Origin: a virus
DNA: 23,842 bases
Virus record (IMG/VR): IMGVR_UViG_3300045733_000433
Location: 1 to 23,842 of that record
Strand: one strand, 5' to 3'
Shown here: piece after piece, positions 573-23,461 of the stretch
Position numbering within the stretch: position 1 is the first letter of the stretch
How the letters are laid out: every line of letters starts with the position of its first letter
Notes under the pieces: model-generated
Seen by the model: the letters and a program-made list of their open reading frames with translations, nothing else
Database searches by the model: none
What the model was told of the DNA's origin: nothing
Translations under genes and position numbers: made by a program

Positions 573-944
573 ATGTCGATTCTTAAAAAAACAACAAAGG
601 AAAAGGTAAAAGATGACCATTATATTGGAATATATATTCCAAAAGAAATGGCATCTTACCTTTCTTTATATTGCCTTGCTATTGGTGTAAGTAAATCTTC
701 TATTGTTGAAAATTTGATTACTAAATGGGTAATAAATACACGCAAAGAAAAACCAACAGATAAACTCTTAAAAGATATAGCCATAAAAGCATTTGTTTTA
801 TGGGAAAATCCTAATGGGAAAAGAACGCATTTTCAAACATTTAAAAATCAATTAAAGAATGAATTACAATACAAAAAATTAGATCAGTTTGCAGATGAAA
901 TAATTAATATATTACTAAATGAAAAGAACAAGAAGGAATCCTGA
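573..944 (+). CDS. Ribbon-helix-helix DNA-binding-like protein
   Basis: A 123-residue protein. Residues about 16-53 have the layout of a ribbon-helix-helix (CopG/Arc-like) domain: a short strand (YIGIYIP), a helix (KEMASYLSLYCLAIG) and a second helix starting SKSSIVENL. Such domains bind DNA as dimers through the paired strands. The remaining 70 residues are lysine-rich and unassigned, with a possible second small helical domain. It begins 8 bases after the upstream stop and its 3' end overlaps the recombinase gene by 26 bases, so it is co-transcribed with recombination genes. It could be an autoregulator or an accessory DNA-binding factor; the sequence does not decide this. Confidence 0.6.
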   Translation: MSILKKTTKEKVKDDHYIGIYIPKEMASYLSLYCLAIGVSKSSIVENLITKWVINTRKEKPTDKLLKDIAIKAFVLWENPNGKRTHFQTFKNQLKNELQYKKLDQFADEIINILLNEKNKKES

Positions 945-1974
945 ATCATTATCTGTACAAGTAAAAAGACACAGTACAGAAGTTCCAAAAAAGAAACATA
1001 CCTTTAAAGGTAATACAGAAACAATGGTTTCTACAGGAAGTACACAACTTGATTTAGCCATTACAGGTGGAAGAATAAGAGGAGGGGGATTGCCTGGAGG
1101 TATTTATGTAGAAGTATTTGGTCCAAGTGGTTCTGGTAAAACAGTCTTACTTTGTGAAATTGCTGGTTATGTTCAAAGAATGGGTGGAGACATTCGATTT
1201 GATGATCCTGAGGCAAGACTCAATAAACAATTTGCACAAATGTTTGATTTTGATATAAAAAACATTGAATATGCAACTCCTGATACGGTAACAGAAGTAT
1301 TTGAAAACATACGAAAATGGAAACCAAAAAAACAAGCTAAAATACATGGAACTTTTACAGATTCTCTTGCTGCCTTATCTACAGATATGGAAATGGAAAA
1401 GGATGAAGGAGATAAAATGGGGCAAAGAAGAGCAAAGGAATTTAGTGAAGGTTTTCGTAAAAATGCAAGAATACTCAAACAGAAAAATTATCTCATGGTT
1501 TGCAGCAACCAAGTTCGTGAAAATCAGGATGCTGGAAAGTATTCTCCCAAATATAAATCAACAGGAGGGTTTGCTATTGGTTTTTATGCATCTCTTCGTT
1601 TACGTGCAACTAACCCAGAAAAAATTTATAAAGAAATAACATTCCGTGGAAAAAAGATTAAAAAAGTTATTGGAGTTGAAACTGTATTTGAAGTTTTCAA
1701 ATCTTCTATTTGGAAGCCTTATCGGACAGCTCCTGTTACCATTATTTTCGATTATGGTATTGACAATATTCGTGATAATTTACAATATATTAAAGATTAT
1801 ACTAAGAATACAACATATTGTGTCAATGATAGAAAACTGGCTGTCAGTATGGAGGACGCAATTAAAATGGTTGAAAGTGAAGGTTTAGAAAATGAACTTC
1901 GTGAAGAGGTCATTAACTTATGGGAACTCATTGAAAGTAAATTTCAATCTAACCGTAAAAAGAAAATCAGATAA
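919..1974 (+). CDS. RecA/UvsX-like recombinase
   Basis: A 351-residue RecA-fold ATPase, about the length of bacterial RecA. Visible landmarks: STGSTQLDLA at about 38-47, matching the RecA N-terminal core; Walker A GPSGSGKT at 68-75; a Walker B-like FTDSLAAL at about 146-153, where RecA has V-D-S-V-A-A-L; and STGGFAIGFYASLRLRA at 214-230, matching the RecA L2/strand region. Known role of the family: it coats single-stranded DNA and drives homologous pairing and strand exchange. In phages this supports recombination-dependent replication and repair. The neighbours (RuvC-like resolvase, Rad50/Mre11-like genes) fit one pathway. The ATG at 919 lies inside the upstream gene and no Shine-Dalgarno is evident, so translation is probably coupled. 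It is closer to phage-type RecA proteins than to cellular ones, so I give no symbol. Confidence 0.92.
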   Translation: MKRTRRNPESLSVQVKRHSTEVPKKKHTFKGNTETMVSTGSTQLDLAITGGRIRGGGLPGGIYVEVFGPSGSGKTVLLCEIAGYVQRMGGDIRFDDPEARLNKQFAQMFDFDIKNIEYATPDTVTEVFENIRKWKPKKQAKIHGTFTDSLAALSTDMEMEKDEGDKMGQRRAKEFSEGFRKNARILKQKNYLMVCSNQVRENQDAGKYSPKYKSTGGFAIGFYASLRLRATNPEKIYKEITFRGKKIKKVIGVETVFEVFKSSIWKPYRTAPVTIIFDYGIDNIRDNLQYIKDYTKNTTYCVNDRKLAVSMEDAIKMVESEGLENELREEVINLWELIESKFQSNRKKKIR

Positions 1975-2172: not shown

Positions 2173-2380
2173 ACAAGGTTCCAAATCTCCTGTACCAAAA
2201 ATGTACAGACGTGATGTTAGAATGAGAAAGAAAAATATGCGAGGGTATGAATTTACCAACAAAAGAAAGCAGGTTGGCAGTTCAATATTTAATGTAATTG
2301 GTCTTTCGAGTTGGGGTCTTGCTCCTATTTACATTCCGAAACGTAAAAAACTAAAAGGATGGCAAAAAAACAGAGCATAA
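2156..2380 (+). CDS. Small highly basic protein (74 aa)
   Basis: Very rich in Lys and Arg through the first 40 residues and again at the C-terminus (PKRKKLKGW). A more hydrophobic middle segment contains IFNVIGLSSWGLAPIYIP. The charge suggests nucleic-acid binding, but no known domain is recognised. It overlaps both neighbours (17 bases upstream, 22 bases into the resolvase gene), which supports it as a real coupled gene. Confidence 0.5.
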   Translation: MEKKIKQGSKSPVPKMYRRDVRMRKKNMRGYEFTNKRKQVGSSIFNVIGLSSWGLAPIYIPKRKKLKGWQKNRA

Positions 2381-2892
2381 AAAGACATCGTAAAATAGAA
2401 GTTCCTTATCCTGAAATGCCAAAAGTTGATAAATATTTTCAAAAAAGTAATATTAGAATATTGGCATTAGATCCGGCAACTCATTGTGGATGGGCAACAT
2501 CTGTTGCTGTATTTGGTGTATGGGATTTAACTCCTAAAAGAGATGAAAGTGCAGGAATGAGACTAATCAGGTTACGTTCCAAATTACAAGAAGTCATTGA
2601 ATCGGAAGCAATTAATCTTGTTGTCTTTGAAAGACCAGGGGGAAGAAATACTGGTGCAGTTATTGTTCAATCTGAAATACAGGGACAGATTAAAACCGTG
2701 TGTGAAGACAAACATATTAATTACAGAGCATATTCTTCCAAAGAAATAAAAACGTTTGCAACAGGAAAAGGAAATGCAGGAAAACCTGCAATGATTGCTG
2801 CTGCCAGAGCAAAACTTGGTTATATTAGAAACAATGATAATGAGGCAGATGCTTTATGGTTATTAATGCTTGCTAAATCAGAATACAAATGA
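2359..2892 (+). CDS. RuvC-like Holliday junction resolvase
   Basis: A 177-residue RNase H-fold nuclease of the RuvC group. The expected acidic residues are visible: first strand ILALDPATHCGWA with D38, VVFERP with E91, and a C-terminal NDNEADALWLL with D160/D164. Length matches RuvC (about 170). A basic N-terminal extension of about 30 residues precedes the fold. Known role: symmetric cleavage of four-way DNA junctions. In phages this resolves recombination intermediates or debranches DNA before packaging. It lies two genes downstream of the RecA-like recombinase, in the same transcription unit. The ATG at 2359 overlaps the preceding gene. Confidence 0.87.
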   Translation: MAKKQSIKRHRKIEVPYPEMPKVDKYFQKSNIRILALDPATHCGWATSVAVFGVWDLTPKRDESAGMRLIRLRSKLQEVIESEAINLVVFERPGGRNTGAVIVQSEIQGQIKTVCEDKHINYRAYSSKEIKTFATGKGNAGKPAMIAAARAKLGYIRNNDNEADALWLLMLAKSEYK

Positions 2893-3534: not shown

Positions 3535-3800
3535 AATATCAAGTAAACCATAAATATCAATTAAGACATTTAGCAGATTTACCTAAATTAAAACGATTAG
3601 CTGCTTATCGTTTATTATATGATTTTGTTGAAGGATTACCTGACGAGCAATTTAATAGTACATTTAACTATGAATTATTAAATCCAACAGAAGAAGCTTT
3701 AAATTTTGCCTTCAAAACAAAACAATGGCCTCTTCTTGAGATACTTAAAATGTTAAAAAAGGAAGAAGAGTTTGAAATACATTTACATGTCAATTTATGA
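3531..3800 (+). CDS. Unknown protein (89 aa)
   Basis: A small, probably helical protein with no motif that I recognise. It is coupled on both sides by four-base ATGA overlaps: with the microprotein upstream and with the Rad50/SbcC-like N-half downstream. That placement makes translation in step with the ATPase subunit likely, but does not prove a shared function. Confidence 0.6.
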   Translation: MKYQVNHKYQLRHLADLPKLKRLAAYRLLYDFVEGLPDEQFNSTFNYELLNPTEEALNFAFKTKQWPLLEILKMLKKEEEFEIHLHVNL

Positions 3801-4876
3801 TTGAAACATTATTAATACGGAATTTTCAAAGTCATAAGCGTACAGAATTAAAATTTGATAAAGGTGTCAACTGTATTATTGGACCAACTGATAGTGGGAA
3901 AACAGCTATTATTAGAGCGTTGCAATGGTTATTTTGGAATACACCTTCCGGAAATGCTTTTTGTAGTGATTGGTCAGAAAATGACACAACCGTCAAAATA
4001 TTGGGATGGCAACATTGGAATAAGGCTACTGATGATTATTTTGAAAGAGGAATAGATAAAAAAGGAGGATATTATCTTCATGGAGATGTCATGTTACGAG
4101 CTTTTGGACAAACTATTCCAGAAGAAGTCAAAAAGTATTTTAACATGTCTGAAATTAATATACAAGAACAACAAGATAGTCCTTTTCTTTTAAATGAATC
4201 ACCTGGAAAGATTGCTGCCTTCTTTAACAAAATAGCAGGTTTGTCTAAAATAGATACAAGCAACCAATACATTCAGGCACAAATAAGGGCAACAAATTAT
4301 GCAATATCTTATAATACAACACTTTTAGAAGAAAAAGAAGAGGAATTAAAAAAATACAGCAATTTACATGAAGCCGATAAAAAATTAAAAATACTTGAAA
4401 AATATGAAAAAGAACAAACACTTTTAATAAAATCTAAAAAGGTTTTAAGATCATCTATTAATGACATAGAAACAATAAATTTCAATTTACAAGAAGTTGA
4501 ATTATTAATTAAGGCTGAAGAAAATGTTAATAAGATTATTCAACTTCTTGAAACAAAAACAAAAAAAATACAAGAAGCTCTTCATCTAAGTGCTGTTATT
4601 TTAAAAATTAAAGAAAAGAATAGAAAAATTACAGCATGTAATAATATTAGTCAAGCTGAAGACAAAGTTGTTAATTTAATACAACAAATAAACAATTTCA
4701 AGTCATTGTCAGCCTATTTGTCGCAGTTTAAAAGTGTTATTAACAACTTACAGCAAGTAAATAAAAACAGCTTTAAAATAGGTGGGAAATTAAAACAAAT
4801 GGAAGACAAATGGGTAGAAGAATTTCCAGACACCTGTCCCTTATGTGGAAGTGAAAAGAAATATCATAAACATTAA
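3797..4876 (+). CDS. Rad50/SbcC-like ATPase, N-terminal half with zinc hook
   Basis: A 359-residue SMC-type ATPase half. It starts with the typical Rad50/SbcC opening (LLIRNFQSHKRTELKF). Walker A is GPTDSGKT at 29-36, and a Q-loop region follows around 121-130 (NIQEQQDSPF). From about 160 to 335 the protein is coiled-coil. It ends with CPLCG (C347, C350), the CxxC zinc hook, 9 residues before the stop. Full-length SbcC/Rad50 continues past the hook into a returning coil and a C-terminal ATPase lobe; here these are absent, so there is no signature motif or Walker B. They are supplied by the gene at 7176-7784. Known role: with Mre11/SbcD the complex binds and processes DNA ends. There is no sign of a frameshift: the stop is followed by other intact genes, so this is a stable gene split. 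Confidence 0.87.
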   Translation: MIETLLIRNFQSHKRTELKFDKGVNCIIGPTDSGKTAIIRALQWLFWNTPSGNAFCSDWSENDTTVKILGWQHWNKATDDYFERGIDKKGGYYLHGDVMLRAFGQTIPEEVKKYFNMSEINIQEQQDSPFLLNESPGKIAAFFNKIAGLSKIDTSNQYIQAQIRATNYAISYNTTLLEEKEEELKKYSNLHEADKKLKILEKYEKEQTLLIKSKKVLRSSINDIETINFNLQEVELLIKAEENVNKIIQLLETKTKKIQEALHLSAVILKIKEKNRKITACNNISQAEDKVVNLIQQINNFKSLSAYLSQFKSVINNLQQVNKNSFKIGGKLKQMEDKWVEEFPDTCPLCGSEKKYHKH

Positions 4877-4888
4877 AAAGGAAATAAT

Positions 4889-5047
4889 ATGTCACAAGAA
4901 GAAATGTGGGAGTTAATTCAAAACACAAAATCTTTTAAACTTGGATTCAATTATTTAGAATTTATTGAATTAAATTGTACTAAATTTAATAAGAATGGTA
5001 AATTTTGTTTAGAACCTTGTGAAAAAGAAGACAATGAAAAAAGTTAG
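4889..5047 (+). CDS. 52-aa microprotein
   Basis: ATG 4889 is preceded by AAAAAGGAAAT, a fair ribosome site. The protein ends 14 bases inside the downstream phosphoesterase gene. It has three cysteines (30, 40, 44) in its second half, arranged C-x9-C-x3-C, and no recognised family. It sits exactly between the ATPase N-half and the nuclease, so an accessory role is possible but not shown. Confidence 0.5.
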   Translation: MSQEEMWELIQNTKSFKLGFNYLEFIELNCTKFNKNGKFCLEPCEKEDNEKS

Positions 5048-5906
5048 TGCAATATTAATGTCTGATGTACATTTACAAGAAACTGTTCCTGTATGTAGAT
5101 TAGACGATTTTGAAAAAACACAATGGAAAAAATTGCTGTTTATTAAAAAACTGCAAATGGAACATGATTGTCCTGTTCTCTGTGGTGGTGATTTATATAA
5201 TCATTGGAAACCATCTCCTGAACTTATAAGCAAAACAATTAAATATCTTCCAAAAGATTTTATTACAATCTATGGACAGCATGATTTACCTCAACATAGT
5301 CTTGAACTACAATCTAAATGTGGTACATATACATTGGAAAAGGCTCATGCATTAAAAATATTAATGGGATTTCATTGGGGAATGAAACCGAATGGAAAAA
5401 CAAAATCTTTTGGAATTCAATTAGAAAATAGTAATAAGGTGATTGCTGTTTGGCATTACTTTACATACAAAGGTAAACTTCCATGGTTTGGATATAAAGG
5501 ACCTACCGCAAAAACAATATTACAAAAGTACCCACAATTCGATTTAATTTTAACAGGAGACAATCATCAAACATTTACAGAAGAATATAATGGTAGATTG
5601 CTTGTTAATCCTGGAAGTATGCTTAGAACAACAGCGGCACAAATTAATCATCGCCCTTGTGTCTTTCTTTGGTATGCTAAAACAAATACAGTTGAACAAG
5701 TATTTATTCCAATAGAGGAAGGAGTTATAAGTAGAGCACATCTTGAATCTACAGAAAAACGTAACGAACGAATAGATGCTTTTATTTCTTATCTTAAAAC
5801 AGATTTTGAAATTGGACTAAGTGTTGAAAAGAACATTGAATTATTTTATCAAAATAATAGAATACGTGGGAATGTAAAAAAAATAATATCTAAAAGTTTA
5901 GAATAA
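5034..5906 (+). CDS. Mre11/SbcD-like metallophosphoesterase (DNA exonuclease candidate)
   Basis: A 290-residue calcineurin-like phosphoesterase. Start set at ATG 5034; a GTG at 5019 is also in frame. Motifs in order: SDVH (D11, H13), GGDLY (D53), GQHD (81-84), WHYF (H141) and LTGDNH (173-178), followed by NPGSM. These match the metal-binding motifs of Mre11/SbcD with two variations: GQHD in place of GNHD, and GDNH in place of GHxH. I believe these are typical of a phage subfamily rather than signs of decay. Known partner: Rad50/SbcC ATPase, whose two halves flank this gene. Together they would resect or open DNA ends. The C-terminal 80 residues probably hold the ATPase-binding helices. Confidence 0.85.
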   Translation: MKKVSAILMSDVHLQETVPVCRLDDFEKTQWKKLLFIKKLQMEHDCPVLCGGDLYNHWKPSPELISKTIKYLPKDFITIYGQHDLPQHSLELQSKCGTYTLEKAHALKILMGFHWGMKPNGKTKSFGIQLENSNKVIAVWHYFTYKGKLPWFGYKGPTAKTILQKYPQFDLILTGDNHQTFTEEYNGRLLVNPGSMLRTTAAQINHRPCVFLWYAKTNTVEQVFIPIEEGVISRAHLESTEKRNERIDAFISYLKTDFEIGLSVEKNIELFYQNNRIRGNVKKIISKSLE

Positions 5907-6103
5907 TGGAAGAAAAAGATTATTTTGAATTCATGGAATACGTTGGAGAAAGGTATATTAGAATTATAAATGATAAAACTTGGTGTGGACTTAAAATGAA
6001 TTTTATGTTAAGAGAAAATCATTTTACAACACAAGAGATTTTTGATAACTGGAAAAAATATCATTGGAGTAAAAAACCTATAAAAAGAACAAGAAAAACA
6101 TGA
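5906..6103 (+). CDS. Unknown small protein (65 aa)
   Basis: Starts with a TAATG overlap on the phosphoesterase stop and ends with an ATGA overlap on the coiled-coil gene, so it is translationally coupled on both sides. Aromatic-rich first half (DYFEFMEYVGERYIRI) and a basic C-terminus (KKPIKRTRKT). No family recognised. Confidence 0.55.
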   Translation: MEEKDYFEFMEYVGERYIRIINDKTWCGLKMNFMLRENHFTTQEIFDNWKKYHWSKKPIKRTRKT

Positions 6104-6327
6104 ATGAACAAGATTTATTAGAATTAAAAAAAGACATTGATAAAGCAAAAGAAGAAAAACTTCAACTGCAAGGACAAAGAAAAACATTGTTATCTCAACT
6201 ATTAGAACATGGTTGTAAAACATTGGAAGAAGCTGAGAAAAAATTAAAAACACTACAAAAAGAAATAGACAATATTTCTGTAACTATTGAAAAAGGAATG
6301 GATGAAATTGAAGAAAATTATTTATGA
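6100..6327 (+). CDS. Small coiled-coil protein, possible Rad50/SbcC arm piece
   Basis: A 75-residue protein that is coiled-coil over nearly its full length, with a central GCKTLEEAEKKLKTL segment. That pattern resembles coiled-coil proteins found beside Mre11/Rad50-like genes in other phages, as far as I recall. It lies between the phosphoesterase and the ATPase C-half. Inference: it could be a third fragment of the split SMC arm, since the C-half has only a short coil of its own. Alternatively it is an independent scaffold. The single cysteine (C39) does not form a hook. Confidence 0.6.
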   Translation: MNEQDLLELKKDIDKAKEEKLQLQGQRKTLLSQLLEHGCKTLEEAEKKLKTLQKEIDNISVTIEKGMDEIEENYL

Positions 6328-6344
6328 AACTAAATATTTGATAA

Positions 6345-6506
6345 ATGAAATATAAAGAAAAAGCTAAATTGATAACTGCAATTACTCACACTTTACTTAC
6401 AGATAAAAAGATAAATGCTTGTGAACCTTTGCAAAAGCTTTGTATTGAAAAACTTGAATTATTAATTGGTTCAATAACACCAGAAGATGCAAAGGTAAGT
6501 TATTAA
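6345..6506 (+). CDS. 53-aa small protein
   Basis: ATG 6345 to TAA 6506, filling the gap between two coupled gene groups. It looks helical (KEKAKLITAITHTLL, then LQKLCIEKLELLIGSI). It has two cysteines and no motif that I recognise. Coding status is inferred from position, open frame and the gene density around it. Confidence 0.45.
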   Translation: MKYKEKAKLITAITHTLLTDKKINACEPLQKLCIEKLELLIGSITPEDAKVSY

Positions 6507-6525
6507 ATAATAAAAAAGAATAAAT

Positions 6526-6801
6526 ATGAGAACAATTTGGAAATTTGAATTAGAAGTTGTTGAAAGACAAGGAATAGAAATGCCAGAAGATACTGAAATT
6601 CTTTGTGTGCAAGTGCAACAAAAACATCCCTGTATTTGGGCTTTGGTTAATCCCGAACAAAAAAGAAATACAGTAAGATGGTTTTACATTTATGGAACAG
6701 GCCATCCTATTGAAAGAAGTTCTGATAAAATATACTTAGGTACATTCTTAATGATGAATGGTAATGCTGTATTTCATTTATTTGAACAAGATATAGAATG
6801 A
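6526..6801 (+). CDS. Conserved phage hypothetical (DUF7352-like)
   Basis: A 91-residue protein whose sequence matches a family that I recognise from many phages and bacteria: an opening TIWKFELEV, then IEMPEDTEILCVQVQ, CIWALVNP, YIYGTGHPI, and an ending FHLFE. The family is small, all-beta in appearance and of unknown function; I believe it is catalogued as DUF7352. It ends with an ATGA overlap on the next gene. Confidence 0.7.
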   Translation: MRTIWKFELEVVERQGIEMPEDTEILCVQVQQKHPCIWALVNPEQKRNTVRWFYIYGTGHPIERSSDKIYLGTFLMMNGNAVFHLFEQDIE

Positions 6802-7022
6802 GAATAGATAAGTATTATGTAATATATGATTTACTGACAAATCAGTATTTCAGAACGTATAAAGAAAATAATGTGGAAGAAGTAATATGGAAGAATAAGG
6901 TTTCATATGCTACCATATATCATTCAATAGGTTCTGTTAATTATGATTTGAAAAAATATCAAATATTTCTTAAAGATACATATTTAGAAATAAAAGAAGT
7001 AAAAGTAATAAGAAAAGAATGA
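6798..7022 (+). CDS. Unknown protein (74 aa)
   Basis: Coupled by ATGA to the preceding conserved gene. Rich in Tyr, Lys and Ile with alternating hydrophobic residues, suggesting a small beta-rich fold. No motif recognised and no membrane segment. Confidence 0.55.
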   Translation: MRIDKYYVIYDLLTNQYFRTYKENNVEEVIWKNKVSYATIYHSIGSVNYDLKKYQIFLKDTYLEIKEVKVIRKE

Positions 7023-7023
7023 A

Positions 7024-7179
7024 ATGAGATTATTTTTATCCATATTAGTCTTAGTATTAACTATTGTCAATTTAATATGTGCAATAGTTTACGCTAAAAG
7101 AAAAGAACCAAAACTTTGGCCTATCTTTGCTTCCTTGTTTTTAATAATCTGTGCTTTACTTTTAATATTTACAAAATGA
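7024..7179 (+). CDS. 51-aa two-helix membrane protein
   Basis: Two hydrophobic stretches (residues about 3-23 and 33-50) flank a charged turn AKRKEPK, so a helical hairpin in the inner membrane is likely. It starts 1 base after the upstream stop, and its own stop overlaps the next gene as ATGA. The shape is compatible with a holin-like, superinfection-exclusion or other small membrane protein. Its position just before the Rad50-like C-half says nothing clear about function. Confidence 0.6.
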   Translation: MRLFLSILVLVLTIVNLICAIVYAKRKEPKLWPIFASLFLIICALLLIFTK

Positions 7180-7784
7180 ACTTACAAGAACTAAGGAATA
7201 AGCTGGAGCAACAAAAAGGGAAAAAACAACATCTTGAAAACCTTATAGAAGAAACAAATGAAAAAATACGTATAGATACTATTTATCTACATGATGCAGA
7301 AAAGGCAAGAGAAATAATGAAAACAATTGGTTTAATGACTCAAAAACAATTACAATTTCATATTTCAGATATAGCCTCACTTGCATTAGAAGGTGTTTTT
7401 CCTAAACCATATAAACTTGTCTTAGATTTTGTAGAACGCAGAAATAAAACAGAATGTGATATATGGTTTGAAAGAAATGGAAAACGAATAAAACCTTTAC
7501 ACGCAGCAGGAGGAGGTACTCTTGATGTTGCATCTTTTGCTTTGCGAATAGCTTGTTGGAGTATGGAAATGGCAAAATCAAGAAATACAATTGTTCTTGA
7601 TGAACCAATGAAATGGGTTAGTGCAGAATATCAAGAAGCTGTTTCTGAAATAATAAAACAAATTTCTAATAAATTAGGAATCCAATTTATCATTACAACT
7701 CATTCTCCTGTATTAGCATCTTATGCTGATAAAATATTTAAAGTACGCATTAAAAATGGAATAAGTAAAGTAATACAAAATTAG
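7176..7784 (+). CDS. Rad50/SbcC-like ATPase, C-terminal half
   Basis: A 202-residue protein that supplies what the N-half at 3797-4876 lacks. Residues about 3-50 are coiled-coil. The ABC/SMC signature region is AAGGGTLDVASFALR (110-124), in place of LSGGE. Walker B is NTIVLDEP (137-144, catalytic E143) and the H-loop is FIITTHSP (H176). A D-loop-like segment follows Walker B. ATP hydrolysis would need the Walker A of the N-half in trans. The start is ATG 7176, overlapping the upstream stop as ATGA; an upstream TTG at 7116 would add 20 residues that only overlap the membrane-protein gene. No zinc hook is present in this half, consistent with a break near the hook. Confidence 0.86.
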   Translation: MNLQELRNKLEQQKGKKQHLENLIEETNEKIRIDTIYLHDAEKAREIMKTIGLMTQKQLQFHISDIASLALEGVFPKPYKLVLDFVERRNKTECDIWFERNGKRIKPLHAAGGGTLDVASFALRIACWSMEMAKSRNTIVLDEPMKWVSAEYQEAVSEIIKQISNKLGIQFIITTHSPVLASYADKIFKVRIKNGISKVIQN

Positions 7785-11279: not shown

Positions 11280-12002
11280 TTAAGCAGGAAAACTAAACCC
11301 CGGAGCTACATTGGCGACAAAATTGTTATAAGCACAGCAACCGGCTATTGTTAATGCGGCCCATTCTGCATTTGTAAAATAGTTGGCTGAATTCGCTCCG
11401 TACCATGGAATCACTGTGCCATCATTAAAATGTGTAACTATTAAATTTTGTGCCATCCAAACCTGGTCTCCGATTTTTACAGTTTGGTAAACATTGCCGT
11501 CGAAATCGGTCATGCTGCCGGGGTCGGTGGAATCGTCTTTGATAAGGCGAATTGGGGAACCTTGCGCCATTGGATTAAATGCGTCTGCTTCTAAATCAAC
11601 TGGGGAAACATTCATAAAATAATAATAATGATACCCCAGGTAATCAAAAGCAAAAGTTGTACTTATAATCCAATCAATATTGGTAATATGATTAAATGTT
11701 CCGCCAAATATATCTCTATATCCGCTGCCTTTTAATGAAAATCCTGTGGTGTTTGTTCCTTGCGGGGATTGTTGAAATGTCACTTCGGTACTTCGCAAAC
11801 TTGCAATTTTATCGTTCGTTGTGTTTCCTGTTAAATTATCTATCAAAGTTTGCCATTCAGTCTGACTTGGCACATGCCATCCCGCTGGAGCTATACTTGC
11901 GCCACCTGTTGAATATAATGCTGCATGCCAGTTGAAAAGCAATCCATATCCAACAGGTGTAAATCCGCTAACCGGTTTTGGTATATGTAATATCCTGTGC
12001 AT
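11280..12002 (-). CDS. FISUMP-domain tail protein, circularly permuted
   Basis: A 240-residue protein built from the Fibrobacter succinogenes major paralogous domain (FISUMP, TIGR02145). The segments appear in swapped order. It opens with YGLLFNWHAAL, WHVPSQTEWQTLIDNL, GFSLKGSGYRD and GSPIRLIKDD, which normally close the domain. It then has DFDGNVYQTVKIGDQVWMAQ, NDGTVIP and WAALTIAGCCAYNN, which normally open it. The fold family is linked to C-type-lectin-like surface proteins of Bacteroidota. Its place as the penultimate gene after the tail proteins suggests a receptor-binding or virion decoration role. It starts with a TAATG overlap on the upstream gene. GC is about 42-48% by hand count in sampled lines, far above the phage average. 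Confidence 0.82.
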   Translation of the reverse strand: MHRILHIPKPVSGFTPVGYGLLFNWHAALYSTGGASIAPAGWHVPSQTEWQTLIDNLTGNTTNDKIASLRSTEVTFQQSPQGTNTTGFSLKGSGYRDIFGGTFNHITNIDWIISTTFAFDYLGYHYYYFMNVSPVDLEADAFNPMAQGSPIRLIKDDSTDPGSMTDFDGNVYQTVKIGDQVWMAQNLIVTHFNDGTVIPWYGANSANYFTNAEWAALTIAGCCAYNNFVANVAPGFSFPA

Positions 12003-22852: not shown

Positions 22853-23461
22853 TTAACTATATTTCCACACAAAACCTCCTGCACTTTTTCTATGTTTAAG
22901 TCCTTTACAACAATTTACAATATCACTACCATCTACTCCTGTTTCTCTAATAGCTTGATTAATAGAATAATAACTTTGTTCTTTTCCTGTTTTTTTATTA
23001 ATAGATATAACACTTTTAGAATTTTTAGTATTTACTCCATTAATTCTATCTTGATTATATTTTTCCCTATTTTCCTCCCAAGTAACTATTTGTAACCTTT
23101 TTAAATTATATCTTTTATAATCATTCGTTCTATCAAATGAAGGACGATTTTGTGTAGCAAATCCAGATTTAATCCATTTATTATAAAGTTTATGAAATAT
23201 ATCTTGACTTAATGCCCATACTTGTAATTCTTGTAAATTATATTTTGGTAATTTGTAACCTCTTTTTATTGAATTCTCTATTTCTGTTCTATATATTGTA
23301 TTAATTAATCCTATTTTAGTTTGTTTTGTTTCTTTTGTCATTTTAGACATACAAAATTTACAATAAGAACGTTTTCCATTTTTGATATTTAAACGATCAT
23401 AAAATTCATCTACTGATTTTATCGTATCACAATTAGGACAATATTTTCCTTTAAGTGCCAT
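22853..23461 (-). CDS. Free-standing homing endonuclease-like protein (zinc ribbon + NUMOD1)
   Basis: A 202-residue protein with three parts. An N-terminal zinc ribbon has CPNC (8-11) and YCKFC (C34, C37). A middle nuclease-like part has PSFDRTNDYKRYNLKRLQIV and VTWEENREKYNQD, as in phage HNH-type endonucleases; the catalytic histidines are not obvious. A C-terminal NUMOD1 DNA-binding module (SVISINKKTG, SINQAIRETGV, AGGFVWKY) is typical of homing endonucleases. It lies between the connector and stopper genes in the same direction, with spacers of only 5 and 20 bases, so it looks like a selfish gene inserted in the structural operon. Very AT-rich codons. Confidence 0.82.
   Translation of the reverse strand: MALKGKYCPNCDTIKSVDEFYDRLNIKNGKRSYCKFCMSKMTKETKQTKIGLINTIYRTEIENSIKRGYKLPKYNLQELQVWALSQDIFHKLYNKWIKSGFATQNRPSFDRTNDYKRYNLKRLQIVTWEENREKYNQDRINGVNTKNSKSVISINKKTGKEQSYYSINQAIRETGVDGSDIVNCCKGLKHRKSAGGFVWKYS

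Follow-up and report, generated by a model that had tools for sequence, protein, structure and literature searches.

A phage Rad50-Mre11 module in which Rad50 is very likely made as separate N- and C-terminal polypeptides

The IMG/VR virus record IMGVR_UViG_3300045733_000433, analysed over all of its 23,842 nucleotides and referred to here as the window, contains a module in which the two lobes of a Rad50/SbcC-like ATPase are encoded by separate genes on either side of an Mre11-like nuclease gene. Taken as a whole, the module is very likely a phage Rad50-Mre11 (gp46/gp47-type) complex for DNA end processing, with a Rad50 that is permanently made as separate polypeptides. The core claim, that this phage Rad50 is an obligate heteromer, is held with high confidence. 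The two Rad50 halves are called N and C, the nuclease M, and a small coiled-coil protein encoded between M and C is called S. The features of the module are as follows.

3797..4876, plus strand: N, the Rad50/SbcC N-lobe half, 359 amino acids (Pfam AAA_23 1.5e-13, with Rad50 profile and Foldseek matches)
4385..4804, plus strand: three tandem 47-residue arm repeats, N residues ~197-336 (blocks KLKILEKYEK.., NVNKIIQLLE.. and KVVNLIQQIN..)
4835..4846, plus strand: CPLC, a putative half zinc hook (C347/C350), with nine residues between C350 and the stop
5034..5906, plus strand: M, an Mre11/SbcD-like calcineurin phosphoesterase (Pfam Metallophos_2 3e-7; P. furiosus Mre11 1ii7 1.7e-5)
6100..6327, plus strand: S, a 75-residue small coiled-coil protein (profile members: 207 open reading frames in 248 loci)
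7176..7784, plus strand: C, a short helix (3-74) followed by a Rad50/SbcC C-lobe, 202 amino acids (phrog_15167 4.6e-28, Rad50 3qkr_B 5e-16)

A first-pass annotation of the window had described both ATPase products with these coordinates, lengths and motifs, including the cysteine pair nine residues before the stop of N, and had placed 2.3 kb of intact genes between them. Both descriptions are borne out: the interval from N to C is 2,299 bases and is filled by the phosphoesterase gene, small open reading frames and the gene for S. The S gene, the 47-residue repeats of the arm and the wide spread of the arrangement had been missed.

N carries the N-lobe of a Rad50/SbcC ATPase, with a Walker A motif (GPTDSGKT) and a Q-loop region (INIQEQQDSPF). 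Its AAA_23 score exceeds the Pfam curated cut-off, the SbcC-like PHROGs family phrog_77 is also matched, and a profile built from 47 N-halves matches residues 5-220 of Rad50 (5f3w_B). After a kink at residues 187-189 a helical arm of 153 residues (190-342) follows, with the CxxC motif at its tip, where zinc binding is putative. Termination at the hook is a property of the family, in which N ends 2-28 residues past the CxxC in 109 of the 112 members in the first set of loci. The AlphaFold2 model of N (mean predicted local distance difference test score, pLDDT, of 85; predicted template modelling score, pTM, of 0.40) draws residues 190-342 as a single helix, and a Foldseek search with it returned the solved Rad50 N-chains 9a9j_A, 1f2u_A/C and 1ii8_A.

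C supplies the motifs of the C-lobe, namely a signature-like AAGGGTLD, a Walker B with its catalytic glutamate (IVLDEP) and an H-loop (TTHS). The classical Rad50 signature is LSGGE; the signature of the C-halves is relaxed, with AAGGG in the window and mostly SGGG or SGVG across the family. All 46 C-halves examined match phrog_15167, an 'ATPase' family (best 6e-105), and C of the window additionally matches the C-terminal end of phrog_77. The profile of the 46 C-halves aligns with residues 172-370 of 5f3w_B, the same chain that is matched by the N profile. The AlphaFold2 model (mean pLDDT 91, pTM 0.71) matches the solved Rad50 C-chains 1ii8_B, 1f2u_B/D and 3qkr_B, and standalone C-like proteins of 193-219 residues are found in a library of structures predicted for viral proteins. 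The solved P. furiosus Rad50 entries (1f2t/1f2u, 1ii8, 3qkr) list the N- and C-terminal parts as separate chains, and it is precisely these chains that the two models match, a hint that lobes made apart can assemble. Judged from sequence, the likeness of N and C to Rad50 is far beyond chance, and the proposal that the two would form one ATPase head is well supported by homology.

For M, the best solved matches of the family profile are to Mre11 (P. furiosus 1ii7). The ATG at 5034 is a more likely start than the GTG at 5019. The DxH and GD motifs are present; motif III reads GQHD in 67 of 121 family members and GNHD in 53, and in the window motif V is GDNH instead of GHxH, with an aspartate replacing the first histidine. 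As is expected of an Mre11/SbcD protein, M adjoins a Rad50/SbcC gene, in the order N-M-S-C, in 106 loci.

A Rad50 head consists of an N-lobe and a C-lobe, and ATP is sandwiched by two such heads; the nuclease is bound at the root of the coil, and CxxC hooks link two arms through zinc (PMC4494100). By extension from this established biology, N of the window would contribute the N-lobe, a lone long helical arm and one half of the zinc hook, with the C-lobe and a short helix coming from C. ATP would dimerise two such heads, and each ATP site would be composed of the Walker A of N and the Walker B of C from one head and the signature from C of the other head. M would dock at the coil root as the nuclease partner. 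Together with the UvsX and RuvC proteins encoded nearby, the complex may process ends for recombination-dependent replication; T4 gp46/47 serve recombination and end processing (PMC3175470).

Alignment-based scans of IMG/VR and of 84,980 prokaryote genomes yielded 248 loci, which reduce to 149 non-redundant clusters; the seven matches from the prokaryote scan are all metagenome-assembled contigs. Scans of IMG/VR with single proteins gave no confirmed relative for N and a single one for C, so that alignments were required as queries, and one C-half alignment (A1) was overly divergent for this use. The order N-M-S-C is found on one strand in 106 of the 149 clusters and N-S-C-M in two, while most of the remainder are cut by contig ends. 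Among all 248 loci there is no open reading frame matched by two of the N, M, S and C profiles, and N and C are separate in every complete locus; a single chain with a coil folding back in matched strands is not found. The same split and order are thus widespread among phages, and the first-pass view of a stable fission rather than a frameshift is upheld, N and C being kept together in divergent phages as well. Sequence distances between N-halves correlate with those between C-halves (0.71, or 0.60 once RecA distance is removed), as do the distances of M and C (0.75, or 0.64 once RecA is removed), and S tracks less. In one locus (L149:6135-7727) an open reading frame of 530 residues runs, by eye, past the hook (CVLCG) into sequence resembling a NUMOD4/HNH homing endonuclease, which has apparently been inserted right at the hook end of N.

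The arm of N is repetitive. Among 96 arms that share <40% identity with each other, 47 is the best lag between 20 and 79 in 74, and the family mean self-similarity at this lag is 0.334 compared to -0.073 +/- 0.017 after shuffling with the hydrophobic pattern preserved. For the window arm taken alone, lag 47 is again the best but is reached by 87 of 2000 class-preserving shuffles; the repeat claim therefore rests on the family. In the E. coli SbcC arms lag 47 ranks just 24th and 42nd. Hydrophobic residues are doubled at repeat positions 5/6, 8/9, 25/26 and 42/43. Taken between the conserved ID153 and the hook, arm lengths range from 144 to 298 and peak at 147 (10 loci), 194 (53) and 241 (2), that is, in steps of 47 residues. 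In contrast, the helix of C (G15-Q56) has 41 residues in 103 of 104 cases and the core of S (L6-K47) 42 in 88 of 104, and correlations of arm length with either are weak and not significant. Since the arm varies while C and S stay constant, a return strand does not match it position by position, which sets it apart from canonical Rad50. The placement of the hook also differs from E. coli SbcC, where it is central, at 469 residues from one Walker motif and 474 from the other; in the window the N side, from Walker A to the hook, spans ~314 residues and the C side, from the start of C to Walker B, ~142.

S is apparently a previously undescribed protein that accompanies nearly every complete module, and in two loci without a scored S an S-like open reading frame was read by eye directly 5' of C. 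It is probably a two-helix hairpin with its turn near HGCKT. No convincing family match was found in Pfam, PHROGs, NCBIfam or the PDB; weak hits to TelA, WXG100, scaffold and other coiled-coil proteins were inconsistent and taken as coiled-coil noise. Neither the arm repeat nor the coil of C is detectably homologous to S (hhalign probability <2%), and the length of S does not suit a plain full-length return strand. The first-pass proposal of a two-subunit Rad50 stands as regards the division into N and C, while two subunits are probably too few given the regular company of S.

Beyond the reach of the helix of C, the arm may, with low confidence, be unpaired with any covalent return strand. One tentative possibility is a trans-built arm of the structural maintenance of chromosomes (SMC) type, a single-stranded rod of 47-residue repeats whose non-covalent partner would be either a second N or several S, one per repeat. 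The favoured arrangement, itself tentative, has the arm paired with that of a second N and closed at the tip through a CPLC:CPLC zinc knuckle. S would then sit on the coil as a helical adaptor of fixed size, which is likewise favoured at low confidence. Both are preferred because the length of the arm changes without any change in S or C.

Three other roles for S were weighed. S may be located off the coil and only share the operon, acting in regulation or, like UvsY, in mediating recombination. This is somewhat unlikely; the operon is one of recombination, and in T4 the interval from 46 to 47 is occupied by small, unrelated genes (46.1 and 46.2), but S adjoins C in most modules and its co-occurrence is near-universal when the S-like frames read by eye are included. 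An unlikely alternative is a three-piece Rad50 in which S fills the central gap of the return strand, paired 1:1:1 with the arm between the hook and the helix of C. The short return strand of the window would be explained, S lies within 20 bases of C in 51% of cases, and the best local match of S helix 1 falls directly past the SbcC hook (529-565), although the database was tiny and the E-value for the whole protein was 6. Against it, the arm varies by ~95 residues in 47-residue steps with S and C unchanged, and S resembles a hairpin with a conserved turn, not one long helix. It is also doubtful that one S hairpin covers each 47-residue repeat, with several copies of S cladding each arm. The repeats are real, S has its own gene and does not vary in size, and the doubled hydrophobic positions could seat more than one helix; however, S has no detectable homology to the repeat, and a homodimeric coiled coil can gain repeats with no ligand involved.

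Divergent relatives bear on whether N and C belong to the same ATPase. One N and one C each are found in vB_BboS-125, Mvi-JY20, Magritte, Tunturi_5 and the 485-kb uncultured phage LR745208. The cultured Bacillus phage vB_BboS-125 has the same split pair, annotated as unrelated genes: N is gp32, an 'exonuclease' (phrog_16465), C is gp35, an 'ATPase' (phrog_15167), and gp34 is S-like. It differs from the window in an arm of ~298 residues and in a nuclease frame that is downstream and unannotated, a 326-residue open reading frame matching the M profile in the gap between gp36 and gp37 (L002:9232-10212, NC_048735.1). In Microcystis phage Mvi-JY20, N, M, an S-like gene and C are consecutive. The distance from N to C is ~7 kb in LR745208, ~39 kb in Microbacterium phage Magritte (around the ends) and 108 kb in Tunturiibacter phage Tunturi_5. 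The N-halves of Tunturi_5 and LR745208 end in CGKC and CPVC motifs, and their arms (L252, L253) are built of units of ~47-50 residues that open with proline-containing motifs (VPDAEP, LPG), which suggests that these arms may be jointed. In LR745208 (L249:6409-8570) the C-half comes directly after a protein that by eye resembles a sliding clamp, and this protein in turn directly after an S-like open reading frame.

It is very improbable that N and C derive from two different ATPases. The genes are separate and lie far apart in some phages, but their motifs are strictly complementary and every divergent genome tested has one N and one C. The 30 longer contigs (37-89 kb) contain exactly one AAA_23 match above the cut-off each, namely the N-half, in a frame of ~310-400 residues, and so lend no support to the case, raised in the first-pass annotation as a refutation, of each half pairing with another full-length partner. 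The divergent phage records contain no second ATPase of the PF13476 type, a result that is uninformative for Tunturi_5, whose own N is missed by PF13476. A decayed, frameshifted or mis-assembled gene, an intron or a split intein can be practically dismissed, as the arrangement is conserved in 106 independent loci with intact intervening genes, no group I/II intron is matched in Rfam, and the 2-28 residues past the hook are too short for an intein half.

Several points weigh against an obligate heteromeric Rad50 with an active nuclease. The pTM of the N model is low, as expected of a long free helix, and the path of the arm is only predicted. N of Magritte (L005, L004) is without the terminal CxxC, N and C being otherwise kept. 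The metal ligands of M are substituted (GQHD for GNHD and GDNH for GHxH), which leaves nuclease activity uncertain. Finally, the correlation of N and C distances that is left after removal of RecA may stem from close gene linkage.

The setting of the module is one of recombination, with two further genes on the 5' side of N.

919..1974, plus strand: UvsX/RecA-like recombinase (phrog_97 1.2e-43)
2359..2892, plus strand: RuvC-like Holliday-junction resolvase (phrog_159 2.9e-26)

Where the flank was sufficient, homologues of the recombinase lie 5' of N in 83 of 85 loci and those of the resolvase in 52 of 85. A tail tape measure gene and other tail and connector genes are on the strand opposite to the module. 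Elsewhere in the window, positions 13-564 encode a highly acidic poly-glutamate protein with two alike segments of ~40 residues (ELLEIAKANPDTFKKHLKAFNK... / ELLTIAESYPGTFKKHLRALKK...), and an HNH/endonuclease VII-like gene (22853-23461, minus strand) lies within the head-tail connector block. A Fib_succ_major (FISUMP) domain protein is encoded close to the tail genes (11280-12002, minus strand) and, with the scarcity of Shine-Dalgarno-like sites, suggests a Bacteroidota-type host.

T4 gp46/gp47 (phrog_77, SbcC-like) is likewise a phage Rad50/Mre11-type pair in a UvsX setting with the same ATPase motifs, and gp47 is matched by the M profile at 9e-9. However, gp46 is one chain of 560 residues with its hook at 288 and Walker B at ~501, whereas the N-chain of the window ends at the hook, and the window module has in addition a conserved S and an arm of 47-residue repeats. 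With SbcCD and Mre11-Rad50 (P. furiosus 1f2u/1ii8/3qkr) the module shares the head fold, Walker A and B, Q-loop, signature, CxxC hook and adjacent phosphoesterase. Natural Rad50 of the P. furiosus type is a single polypeptide that forms its antiparallel coil intramolecularly, and its division into an N and a C chain is confined to the solved head entries; in the window the arm is a single strand of repeats. Apart from the single chain that folds back, the module is predicted to work like Rad50-Mre11. Mre11/Rad50 fusions such as Mimivirus R555 are also non-canonical viral architectures, but there nuclease and ATPase are fused and the ATPase is not split (PMC3175470). The same paper describes a fusion without one P-loop segment in Bacillus phage 0305phi8-36, and its text does not mention 'split' or 'fission'. 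In the available part of a large jumbo-phage survey, SbcCD is near-universal and a split is unmentioned. Text searches, which covered open-access papers, did not turn up any account of a split Rad50/SbcC in phages. The halves are already in PHROGs as separate families, and the split layout is common yet apparently unreported.

To our knowledge, all well-studied Rad50/SbcC and SMC proteins join their two ATPase lobes via a covalent fold-back coil, and it has long been asked how a signal passes between hook and head through this coil. A large natural family with the coil cut at its tip and a short return strand suggests that covalent continuity is dispensable. If the trans-built arm is correct, its length could shift by gain or loss of repeats with the rest of the machine unchanged, and the complex could open by dissociation, beyond the opening of hook or head alone. 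The split module already offers a system whose hook, arm, C-lobe and S may be separately mixed, omitted or varied in length, and with its layout the opening and closing of such machines and their hold on DNA become testable. With this module in mind, proteins annotated as 'exonuclease', 'ATPase' and hypothetical in many phages can be identified as parts of one machine.

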